In this document: one piece after another, positions 8,586-11,925 of the stretch | Numbering within the stretch: position 1 is the stretch's first letter | Layout of the letters: each line of letters starts with the position of its first letter | Assembly: GCA_022648295.1 (NCBI GenBank) | Contig: JALCME010000004.1 | Coordinates: forward strand, 62,001 to 126,000 | DNA from: Bacteroides sp. | GTDB lineage: Bacteria > Bacteroidota > Bacteroidia > Bacteroidales > Bacteroidaceae | Direction: 5' to 3' | Length of the DNA: 64,000 bases | Program-made: the position numbers and the translations under genes | Notes under the pieces: model-generated | What the model saw: the letters and a program-made list of their open reading frames with translations, nothing else | The model's database searches: none | What the model was told of the DNA's origin: nothing

Positions 8586-8590
8586 TAGTT

Positions 8591-8650
8591 GTTCCCCTTT
8601 ACTGCGATCAAAAGCTAAATAACAGCTTATTAATCAATGTAAAGGGGAAC
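8591..8650. terminator. Bidirectional terminator-like hairpin after thi4
   Basis: A perfect 12-bp inverted repeat, GTTCCCCTTTAC at 8591-8602 and GTAAAGGGGAAC at 8639-8650, with a nested AAGCT/AGCTT stem in the loop. On the plus strand it is followed by TCTTTT. It lies between convergent genes (thi4 stop 8585, PutAbiC-like stop 8655) and can end both transcripts. Confidence 0.7.
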
Positions 8651-8654
8651 TCTT

Positions 8655-9602
8655 TTAGGAATACTGTTTTTCCCATTCTTCTCTTTTCTTCTTTCTTGTA
8701 TCATCACCCTTATAATATTCATAATCAATATGTGGATATAGACTTTCAAATTTGAACTTTAAAAAGTTATCATTATATGATTTAGGAAGATTCTTAACTA
8801 AATTGTACTTAGTTATCAACTTTTTATTTTCATCTTCAATTTCTCCTGATAACTCCCACACATCACCTAATACAGATAAAGAATTTAAAAACAACAAATA
8901 CTGTTCATTTAAATTAAGGCATACTCTTAAAGATTTTATATAACCATATTTTTCTCTATACTCTAATATTTTGTTATCATTTATATAAGTTATAATTTGG
9001 TACAATTGGCGAAAATAAATCCCCAATTCTTTACTATGCCCATATAACTTTATATTATTAGTACTAAAGTAATCATTCATTTTTTTTATTTGTTTCTCTT
9101 CAATATCTATCTTAGATATAATTTCATCTGCATCCAACATACTTCCATAGAAAAAATAAAAATAAGCTAGTTTAAAATAAGAGTTATTAGGGCTATTATC
9201 ATCATCAGGAGATGATAGTTCTCGTTGTACAGATGCATATATAACACTTAAAAGATCAATATATTTCCCAAAGACATCTACTCCTGAAATAGATATACTC
9301 TTCACATTGTTATTATGCTGTTTTAACATTTCATAAAAACGACTTTTTATTACGTCTTTTCTAAAAGTCAAATATGCATAATAAACAGCTAAAGCAGCAA
9401 AGAAAGTACCAAAAACGCCACCAATAAAACTTCCAATAGAAGTAAATCCGTCAAAATCAATTGGTAATTTCATATCAAAAGGCCGGCAATTTCCCCATAC
9501 AACAACGCCTAATATAACTATAATTAAAGCGTAAATCAAAATGCAAGACAATATAAAGTGTCCTTTAATCCATCTCATTATTAGGAATATTTTATTTCTC
9601 AT
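8655..9602 (-). CDS. PutAbiC-like two-TM protein, candidate phage-defence effector
   Basis: 315 residues resembling the putative abortive-infection family PutAbiC (PF16872). Two hydrophobic segments lie at about residues 16-36 and 54-80, followed by the family-like YYAYLTFRKDVIKSRFYEMLKQH and a large cytoplasmic, mostly helical C-terminal part ending in a charged EEWEKQ tail. I use the ATG at 9602, 4 bases after the stop of the NTPase extension frame; an in-frame TTG at 9632 would overlap it. The gene is last in a two-gene minus-strand operon with the KAP-type NTPase, so the NTPase may sense and this protein may act at the membrane. Very AT-rich compared with the thiamine genes on either side, suggesting transfer. 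The family link is from pattern memory and its activity is inference. Confidence 0.7.
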   Translation of the reverse strand: MRNKIFLIMRWIKGHFILSCILIYALIIVILGVVVWGNCRPFDMKLPIDFDGFTSIGSFIGGVFGTFFAALAVYYAYLTFRKDVIKSRFYEMLKQHNNNVKSISISGVDVFGKYIDLLSVIYASVQRELSSPDDDNSPNNSYFKLAYFYFFYGSMLDADEIISKIDIEEKQIKKMNDYFSTNNIKLYGHSKELGIYFRQLYQIITYINDNKILEYREKYGYIKSLRVCLNLNEQYLLFLNSLSVLGDVWELSGEIEDENKKLITKYNLVKNLPKSYNDNFLKFKFESLYPHIDYEYYKGDDTRKKKREEWEKQYS

Positions 9603-9606
9603 GAAT

Positions 9607-9954
9607 TTATTTATCCAATTGGAAAGAATCAATACATTCTAATAGATTCTTTTTCATTAGGGCAAATGGTATATAACTAATCTTTCTATTATTTTCCTGA
9701 TTTAACTTATTTTCTATCAATTCTAGCATCTTTTTTATAAAAAGATATTCATAACTGGCAGGTGTCTGGTAATCTCGAAGCTGATATCTTCCATTAATGG
9801 ATATTCTAAATTTATTTATTGAATCAGCATTTACTTGTGTTAATACATTAAAGATTGATTCTGCGTCATTTGCATTCAATATATAATCATCAGTCCTTTT
9901 CACAAGTTTTGCATCCAACATTTCGGCATTACCATCTTTAACAGCTTGTATAAT
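9607..9954 (-). CDS. C-terminal part of the KAP NTPase in the -1 frame
   Basis: This 115-residue stretch begins at the A7 run with ATT ATA CAA and reads IIQAVKDGNAEMLDAKLVKR and onward to a stop at 9607. The reading continues sensibly upstream of its first ATG (9921), which overlaps the end of the preceding frame, so it looks like the natural C-terminus of the NTPase rather than a separate gene. Joined to residues 1-515 of the upstream frame it would give a protein of about 630 residues. It contains an ISINGRYQLRDYQTPASYEY segment and amphipathic helices; I recognise no domain. If translated independently from ATG 9921 it would make 104 residues, overlapping the upstream stop by 22 bases. Confidence 0.65.
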   Translation of the reverse strand: MIQAVKDGNAEMLDAKLVKRTDDYILNANDAESIFNVLTQVNADSINKFRISINGRYQLRDYQTPASYEYLFIKKMLELIENKLNQENNRKISYIPFALMKKNLLECIDSFQLDK

Positions 9955-11498
9955 TTTTTTACAACAACAGTGTTTTGGCTCGCCAAAACAGCCTCTTTTA
10001 TTCCTTTATTCAACGTCTCAGCATAATCAAGGAGTGCATGGTATTTTCTATATTGTACTGACTTATTCTTCTGCCATAAAGAAGTATAGTGTTCCAAAAA
10101 GGAAGAATCATATACAACTTTTAAAGACTCAACAGACTTCTTCATTGCTTCTTTAAATCTCATTGACACATCTTCATCAACAACAACTCCTTCAATCTGA
10201 TAAGACTCCAATACTAATAACTGGCTATATATCTGTAGATACGTACCCAAAGAAAACTCACCTTCATCCACCGCCAATAATATTTCTTCTATTTTATCCT
10301 GATACTCATCATCCGATAAAGAATAAAAATTATTAATTATCTTCAAAATGCTATCCTCTTTTGTCCCCTCTTTTCTTTTCAAAGAAAGTACAATTCTATC
10401 TATTTCACCTTGAAACGCCTCAACATTAAAATATCCGGATTTAAGATAATTAGCTATGCTATCAAAAGGTTCAAAAGATTCATTATTATTCTCAAAATAT
10501 TGTTTTTGGAGCTTAACCAAATAAACCTCTTCTTTTTTAGGCCTATTTTCATCTTGCAGCGGGAATTCGTTACTTAAATCGCCTTCTAAATCCAACTCGA
10601 TGCCTTGTTCCTCAAGAGAAAGGATTCTTTTTGGAATCTGCAGTTTTTGGAGCAGCTCAAATGGATATAAACCTCTTTTGAACTCTATTGCAAAAAAAGT
10701 AGTATAAAATAAAACGAGCCTCCGTAATTTACTTACATATTTATCCTCAACAACTAATATCTCTACAACACGACTAATGTCTCTTAGTATCTTATCGATT
10801 GAGGTCAACAAATATTGAAGTGTCCGTAAGTTTTGGCATCTTCCTCTATCAAAAACTAATTTTACTAACGTTTTTTCTTCCTCATCCAATTTTAATATAG
10901 GATAACTATTCAATATATCACAAAGATTTGGTCTATATTCAACAGTAAAACGAATATATTTTTCTTTTATCAAAGAATACTTTTTCGCTAGTATAGGATT
11001 TTTCTCATTTAAATTACTACTTAACCTATTTTCATCACATACAATAATAGTCTTTGTTTGGCTATGTTCAATATATGAATTTATAAAGCCTAACGCCTCT
11101 TCAAAGAAAGAAGGATCAATACGCTCAAAATCATCAAAACAAAAGACAATATTCTTAGGAATATTTAATCGAAGTTCTAAGTCTTGTTCGCCTGCAACAT
11201 TTCTCAATAACTCAATTTCTTCATCCATCAAAGTATGAGTTGATTGAGCTTTAATATTGATTCGAGATAACATTAATTCTTTTAATACATTCAAATCATT
11301 TATCCCAGATAAGGTAATATAAATGGGCCTATACTGCCACTCTCTCATTTTAGCTATTAAAGTATTTTTCAAAAAATAAGTTTTTCCACTACCCCATTCA
11401 CCACTTATCATATAAGCATAATTAGTAGGCTCTTTTTCTTTTAAATAATCCATAATTGGGTTAAGGATAGGAGATTGACTTTCTGATAGATTTTCCAT
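9900..11498 (-). CDS. KAP-family P-loop NTPase, zero-frame product
   Basis: NTPase of 532 residues in the zero frame. Walker A is GEWGSGKT at residues 33-40 and Walker B is IVFCFDDFERID with Asp122-Asp123; the next strand TKTIIVCDENRLSS fits the KAP pattern. The rest is helical, charged and without further motifs; I see no TM segment. The last 17 residues (after VVVKK) look like out-of-frame read-through that ends at 9900, while the -1 frame continues a protein-like sequence. So either an A7 slip makes a longer product of about 630 residues, or the gene is frameshifted. It precedes the PutAbiC-like gene in a probable operon. KAP NTPases occur in many bacterial conflict systems, so defence is the leading inference; the trigger is unknown. 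AT-rich and probably acquired. Confidence 0.8.
   Translation of the reverse strand: MENLSESQSPILNPIMDYLKEKEPTNYAYMISGEWGSGKTYFLKNTLIAKMREWQYRPIYITLSGINDLNVLKELMLSRINIKAQSTHTLMDEEIELLRNVAGEQDLELRLNIPKNIVFCFDDFERIDPSFFEEALGFINSYIEHSQTKTIIVCDENRLSSNLNEKNPILAKKYSLIKEKYIRFTVEYRPNLCDILNSYPILKLDEEEKTLVKLVFDRGRCQNLRTLQYLLTSIDKILRDISRVVEILVVEDKYVSKLRRLVLFYTTFFAIEFKRGLYPFELLQKLQIPKRILSLEEQGIELDLEGDLSNEFPLQDENRPKKEEVYLVKLQKQYFENNNESFEPFDSIANYLKSGYFNVEAFQGEIDRIVLSLKRKEGTKEDSILKIINNFYSLSDDEYQDKIEEILLAVDEGEFSLGTYLQIYSQLLVLESYQIEGVVVDEDVSMRFKEAMKKSVESLKVVYDSSFLEHYTSLWQKNKSVQYRKYHALLDYAETLNKGIKEAVLASQNTVVVKKLYKLLKMVMPKCWMQNL
9954..9960 (-). other. A AAA AAA slippery heptamer at the NTPase frame junction
   Basis: On the minus strand the coding sequence reads GTA AAA AAA TTA. 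The last base of GTA plus two AAA codons form the X XXY YYZ heptamer A AAA AAA in exactly the zero-frame phase needed for -1 slippage. A -1 slip gives AAA AAA ATT ATA and joins the long NTPase frame to the downstream protein-like frame. Transcript slippage adding one A would have the same result. A sequencing or assembly error in the homopolymer is the main alternative. Confidence 0.6.
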
Positions 11499-11517
11499 TT
11501 AAATCTTTAGTTATAAA

Positions 11518-11535
11518 ATTAGGCACGATTAGGCA
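11518..11535. repeat. Direct repeat ATTAGGCA x2 upstream of the NTPase gene
   Basis: Two perfect 8-base copies of ATTAGGCA (11518-11525 and 11528-11535) are spaced with a 10-base period, one helical turn, 20-37 bases upstream of the NTPase ATG. The position is right for a promoter-proximal regulator site of the defence-like operon. No clear TAnnTTTG box is recognisable here. The rest of 11499-11695 is AT-rich with no gene. Confidence 0.4.
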
Positions 11536-11695
11536 TACAATATTCAATATTTTTTCTAACAAATACAAATAATATCAGTAGAAAAAGGAGAAATAATACA
11601 GTATAAATACACTTCGTATAGTCTTCCATCTTTATTGAAAGTATATATTAGAAACCAAATACTTAATCCGAGTTCCATCAAAAGACAAGCACTTG

Positions 11696-11882
11696 CCTAA
11701 TAAGTTAACTTACAACACAAACTTTATTTCCTTATAGAAAACGGTTTGTTTTGAAGGCCAAAACGATTTGTATTGACGTTCAAAACAACTTGTTTTGAGC
11801 AGCAAAACGAGTTGTTTTCCTATAGAAAACAGATTATTCTCTTTAGTTGTACTATCAATAAAATGTAAGTTAACTTATGAGG
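11696..11882. repeat. 187-bp element: 19-bp terminal inverted repeats around a 22-bp-period repeat
   Basis: The ends are CCTAATAAGTTAACTTACA (11696-11714) and, as its inverse, 11864-11882, identical in 18 of 19 positions; each contains the palindrome AAGTTAACTT. Inside, five degenerate units start at 11737, 11759, 11781, 11803 and 11825, exactly 22 bases apart, each opening with (C/G)AAAAC; most continue with a short AT-rich core and a TTGT(T/A)TTG-like end, so each of these is itself nearly palindromic. No open reading frame and no clear target-site duplication are seen. It could be a MITE-like non-autonomous element or a structured intergenic repeat. It sits between the defence-like operon and the ThiE/TenI gene. 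Confidence 0.75.
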
Positions 11883-11925
11883 TATGTATTGATGCAATAA
11901 CGAAAGCATCATTTGGAAGTAAAGT

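Follow-up and report, generated by a model that had tools for sequence, protein, structure and literature searches.

Transposase orfA/orfB pairs use programmed -1 frameshifting, and a pair of this kind lies on the same contig as the gene described here. It has A_AAA_AAA at its frame junction too, and its second frame stops after 168 codons inside a partial rve match (Pfam scores of 24.4 bits for HTH_Tnp_1, with a cutoff of 24.1, and of 22.3 bits for rve, below the cutoff of 32.6). The closest described protein family is PDC-S49, a candidate defence family in PADLOC whose anti-phage role here is putative; the name was not met in the literature searched. The closest arrangement of genes is an operon of a KAP NTPase and a putAbiC protein in an IMG/VR sequence (L037, the DNA of homologue P0008 or of a near copy), in which both genes are whole, encode 650 and 329 aa and overlap by 14 nt. 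No paper on a KAP NTPase and putAbiC pair was recognised in the literature searched, and the function of the pair is putative.

The locus lies in a window of 64,000 nucleotides of Bacteroides DNA and was compared with each of these systems. Coordinates of the features are given in Table 1. A KAP NTPase gene is followed here by a putAbiC gene in the same order, on the same strand and with similar sizes as in L037, but of the two NTPase stops only the one in the -1 frame adjoins the putAbiC start, the zero-frame stop lying ~300 nt away. Both pieces of the NTPase have profile matches to the PDC-S49 / KAP_NTPase PF07693 family, whose members are continuous where checked, whereas this copy is split. 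The split has A_AAA_AAA and the -1 register in common with the frameshifting of IS transposases; unlike it, the split has no conserved site, and no stimulator was found. Each of the related genes that were examined forms one uninterrupted reading frame, and the frame break is therefore most probably a recent mutation of an ordinary kind or a sequence error, not a designed switch.

Table 1. Features of the split NTPase gene and its surroundings (positions are those of the window unless another sequence is named).
Feature	Position	Strand	Remarks
Zero-frame ORF	9900-11498	minus	532 codons; residues 1-515 are the protein proper, the last 17 residues are out of frame
-1 frame	9607-9954	minus	115 residues and stop; C-terminal part of the NTPase
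A7 in A_AAA_AAA register	9954-9960	minus	likeliest place of the frame change
Perfect 9-bp inverted repeat, 2-nt gap	9971-9990	minus	significance doubtful
Second gene, putAbiC family (PF16872)	8655-9602	minus	intact; 54.9 bits, cutoff 22
Low-GC cassette locus	8586-11925		3,340 nt, 28-32% GC; two genes between two thiamine-synthesis genes
Transposase orfA/orfB pair	L059:8605-9452 (G000:C4 128605-129452)	minus	outside the window

The A7 run stands at gene offset 1538 in the register GT[A AAA AAA]TTA, so that A_AAA_AAA forms an X_XXZ_ZZN heptamer in register for a -1 slip. The zero frame reads KK through the run, then 17 residues and a stop; a slip into the -1 frame gives IIQAVKDGNAEMLDAKLVKR followed by 95 further residues up to a stop codon at 9607-9609. 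The joined product would have 515 + 115 = 630 residues. In place of the continuous ORF of ~620 aa of a PDC-S49 / KAP NTPase, the DNA thus holds 532 aa and an out-of-frame remainder. The -1 frame is already open over the 15 codons ahead of A7, a stretch of weak homology, so the frame change may sit anywhere within it; A7 is the likeliest site. The original prediction, that an A7 run joins an NTPase frame to a protein-like -1 frame, was exact, and its coordinates, 17-codon tail and joined length were all reproduced.

Both frames encode parts of one protein. The zero frame matches KAP_NTPase PF07693 in Pfam at 54.5 bits (cutoff 20) and contains the stretches GEWGSGKT and CFDDFER, which we take to be of Walker A and Walker B type. 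Against PDC-S49, a profile for which PADLOC supplies no cutoff, residues 13-505 of the zero frame align with positions 11-490 of 624 (E 2.8e-35) and the -1 part with positions 529-612 (E 1.9e-5). All five of the NTPase homologues scanned match PDC-S49 as well, and a genome search with a profile built from 11 homologues recovered the -1 part at E 6.5e-33. Identity to the five nearest homologues over the last 100 residues is 50, 56, 48, 42 and 45%, against 52.6, 52.6, 48.3, 43.7 and 43.3% over residues 1-490, so any decay of the C-terminal part is at most recent. The last 100 residues are slightly less conserved in P0007 and P0008 (38% against 40-42%) and clearly less so in P0009-P0013 (22-25% against 34-38%). 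The PDC-S49 match and the conservation in homologues bear out two further claims, that the phase is exactly -1 and that the -1 frame encodes the real C-terminus.

The junction itself falls in a loosely conserved region, and residues 491-530 are poorly conserved in all 12 nearest homologues (16-34%). In a structure model of homologue P0002, whose pTM is only 0.45, a loop at residues 503-508 parts two predicted helices. Residues ~510-514, which align with the junction (loosely at this point), would form the start of the second helix, and the sequence beyond them is predicted to be nearly all helical. A structure search with this model gave no match at E <= 0.001, and the best 50 of 710 entries were mostly AAA+ and other P-loop ATPases. 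A sequence search of the PDB gave no match for the NTPase or the putAbiC protein.

The homologues checked show an unbroken gene. The protein search with the 532-aa query returned 61 proteins, the window's own included, from 7,998 candidates scored. Lengths range from 591 to 651 aa among the 12 nearest homologues (P0002-P0013). Of all 60 proteins apart from the window's own, 56 have at least 575 aa; the remaining four are distant and, at 361-425 aa, fall well below the length of the zero frame. At the DNA level 30 loci were compared, several of them distant, and two duplicates were dropped. All 28 distinct ORFs are unbroken and run 71-142 residues beyond the aligned junction, a position that is approximate because C-terminal similarity is weak in all of them except L037. 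The original prediction named homologues ending at the zero-frame stop as its refutation; none of the 12 nearest proteins or the 28 ORFs ends there. In 7 of the 28 ORFs a run of at least seven A's lies no more than 75 nt from the aligned position, with offsets between -75 and +37 nt (the nearest, in L044, is 7 nt off), so the linker is A-rich in several relatives but has no fixed site. With the homologous ORFs unbroken and the run not conserved, a frameshift site conserved among homologues was ruled out. A further open frame of 493 aa (G177/L017), considered as a second truncated homologue, was excluded from the counts because its gene ends at the contig end.

Few genomes in the samples of the genus and the order carry the gene, and its distribution among them is patchy. 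With the window's own genome counted, 8 of 158 genomes in the genus sample have any NTPase match at E <= 1e-3, and 7 of 393 in the order sample have one at E <= 1e-10. Protein searches of other collections gave distant relatives only: 19 plasmid records, in none of which a single region accounted for 80% of the query, one phage record, and two loci on genome contigs. A putAbiC partner probably lies on the same contig in 8 of the 12 nearest homologues (P0002-P0009, judged by an equal-sized longest contig) and was not assigned to the other four. An ORF of more than 200 aa starts close behind the NTPase in only 3 of the 28 ORFs, some of whose loci are short there. In the genus sample, the window's own genome is the only one to match both the NTPase and putAbiC. 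The pairing is therefore a feature of the near homologues.

From its sequence, the NTPase gene probably opens an operon of KAP NTPase and putAbiC, anti-phage by likeness. The putAbiC ATG lies at 9602, 4 nt past the -1 stop (the database protein of 307 aa starts later), so a full-length reading restores an adjacency like that of L037. GC content is 37-57% around the cassette, against the lower values within it. The thiamine genes on either side are presumably an ADP-thiazole synthase-like gene and thiE. In the relative G031, the aligned thiamine neighbours are ~340 nt apart, which leaves no room for the cassette; compared by DNA, G031 and the contig have alignments of more than 300 nt in the thi region only.

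We lean slightly towards a formerly continuous KAP-family NTPase (PDC-S49) of ~630 aa whose frame may have been broken by a recent indel in one lineage. The indel would most likely lie inside the A7 run, where the protein has a linker under little constraint. The main product would then be the 515 residues with a foreign tail of 17, lacking the C-terminal helical part, and its translation would end ~300 nt ahead of the putAbiC start. Unprogrammed slips at A_AAA_AAA would still yield full-length protein as a minor share of the product. In E. coli, bare A_AAA_AAA without stimulators gives >0.10% frameshifting and the best bare motifs ~0.3% (PMC4066793, in excerpt), and the native A7 cassette of magnesium chelatase gives 10% (PMC3711429, in excerpt); on these figures, for the bare motif and the native cassette, leaky full-length expression from A7 is plausible. 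The homology, the register, the unconserved site and the negative search for downstream structure are observed; we infer that the DNA itself carries the break, that it arose recently and that it leaks.

Some observations count against the indel. The -1 part shows no relaxed constraint relative to near homologues, as expected if it is still made, and the register fits a -1 slip exactly, although the contig has 30 heptamers in such register. A slippery heptamer in the right register is for that reason weak evidence by itself. On the 193-kb contig, where the 137 ORFs that reach 120 aa contain 58 sense runs of A7 or longer (46 of seven, 11 of eight and one of nine), the heptamer stands in slip register in 30 of the 58. 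After a slip, the -1 frame is open for 115 codons here, for 168 at the transposase junction and for at most 44 in the other 28. The window itself has 46 matches to A7, against 55.8 +/- 10.7 in shuffles. The unusual feature is the open, homologous -1 frame and not A7 itself. For a true, correctly read break, the heptamer and its register are the only positive signs of programming, and we regard the locus as an ordinary frame break pending strain or reporter data to the contrary. In an annotation, the two pieces are best entered together as a single interrupted gene.

The alternative that survives best, possible but on balance unlikely, is an error of the consensus sequence in the A run, the cell's gene being continuous. 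The two parts are equally conserved in near homologues, the break is a singleton at a homopolymer, and no other sequenced strain was seen. Such cases are discussed in PMC3711429, which in the part concerned puts singleton frame breaks in non-orphan genes down to indel or sequencing error and, for singletons validated by BLASTp, expects error rather than indel. No near-identical intact protein was among the matches of the protein search; such a protein would presumably have shared more words with the query than any other. Against an error, the database records the broken form of 532 aa on two contigs, and likewise the 104-aa remainder and the putAbiC protein of 307 aa. The two contigs are possibly not independent; the longer has 192,806 bases, as has the window's own contig. 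The survey of the 58 sense runs also speaks against it, with one other long -1 continuation, that of the transposase pair; the survey addresses the -1 register at A runs and is not a full error estimate. A run of eight A's in the neighbouring putAbiC gene sits in an open frame. In a Pfam scan of 20 window ORFs, 19 of them with long runs, 18 of the 19 have a family match, and in none does a run truncate the matched domain, some of these matches spanning only part of the protein.

We consider it improbable that programmed -1 ribosomal frameshifting or transcript slippage yields the 532-aa and 630-aa forms in a fixed ratio, which would make this a defence-like operon dosed by frameshifting. The classic heptamer in exact register, its identity with that of the transposase junction on the same contig, the modelled position of the junction beside an inter-helix loop and the magnesium chelatase figure all point that way. 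The rate for the best bare heptamers points the other way, as does the region upstream of A7 (CACTGTTGTTGT), where reading by eye found no Shine-Dalgarno-like motif 10-14 nt from the run. No downstream pseudoknot or stem beats shuffles, with z of +1.23 for 74 nt and +0.21 for 121 nt including the run, but the fold test is equally blank on the transposase control (z -0.06) and so has low power. For transcript slippage, E. coli RNA polymerase shows none that is detectable below eight A's (PMC6260861, in excerpt). Among the options named in the original prediction, a plain indel or sequence error fits best. Two regulated NTPase forms found no support, since conservation of the run is lacking, no homologue among those checked is split, and the downstream structure test, a weak one, was negative.

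An extended form of this idea is also improbable. The A7 run with the inverted repeat upstream would be a slip site in use, giving mostly truncated NTPase and a minority of full-length protein; only ribosomes that terminate in the -1 frame would feed putAbiC translation, and the slip rate would set the dose of both proteins. The arms of the repeat (TGTTTTGGC/GCCAAAACA) end 10 nt upstream of A7, inside the NTPase coding sequence. As a stimulator of transcript slippage the hairpin was set aside, given this distance and fold z-scores of only -1.28 (57 nt through the run) and -0.39 (111 nt across it).

A phase-variable switch through replication slippage in the A run seems similarly doubtful. A homopolymer in a defence-like gene and the conservation of both parts would suit it, but seven A's are ordinary on this contig, the run has no fixed place in homologues, and the sequences compared show a single state. 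Across 108 bacterial genomes, selection against such runs becomes visible at differing lengths, in a large share of the genomes at nine (PMC1088944, in excerpt). That the C-terminal part is made alone as a 104-aa protein from its own ATG (9607-9921) is very unlikely: the ATG comes early in the -1 frame and a database entry (P0062) exists, but a search with the -1 part gave no other stand-alone homologue (one hit, four candidates scored).

The surroundings of the cassette also contain repeats. At 11738-11830 of the window, CAAAAC and GTTTTG alternate every 11 nt in an array of period 22 with variable 5-mers between them. Similar arrays occur at about eight other places in the genome (contigs C1, C6, C7, C12, C19, C20, C24 and C32), and a GTTAACTTAC/GTAAGTTAAC motif lies close to arrays, at both ends on C4 and at one end on C7 and C12. 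A 28-nt pattern of the array, with at most 2 mismatches, has 36 matches in this genome against 10 for the reversed control, and 2 against 2 in 20 relatives together. The array looks like a small repeat element, probably specific to the strain or species. The inverted repeat upstream of A7 has GTTTTG/CAAAAC in common with it. Sites of the form GTTTTG-N0-10-CAAAAC number three on the 193 kb, all within the cassette, against a mean of 0.26 and a largest value of 3 in letter-shuffled controls. The hairpin may be a stray unit of the GTTTTG/CAAAAC repeat, but its spacer is 6 and not 5.
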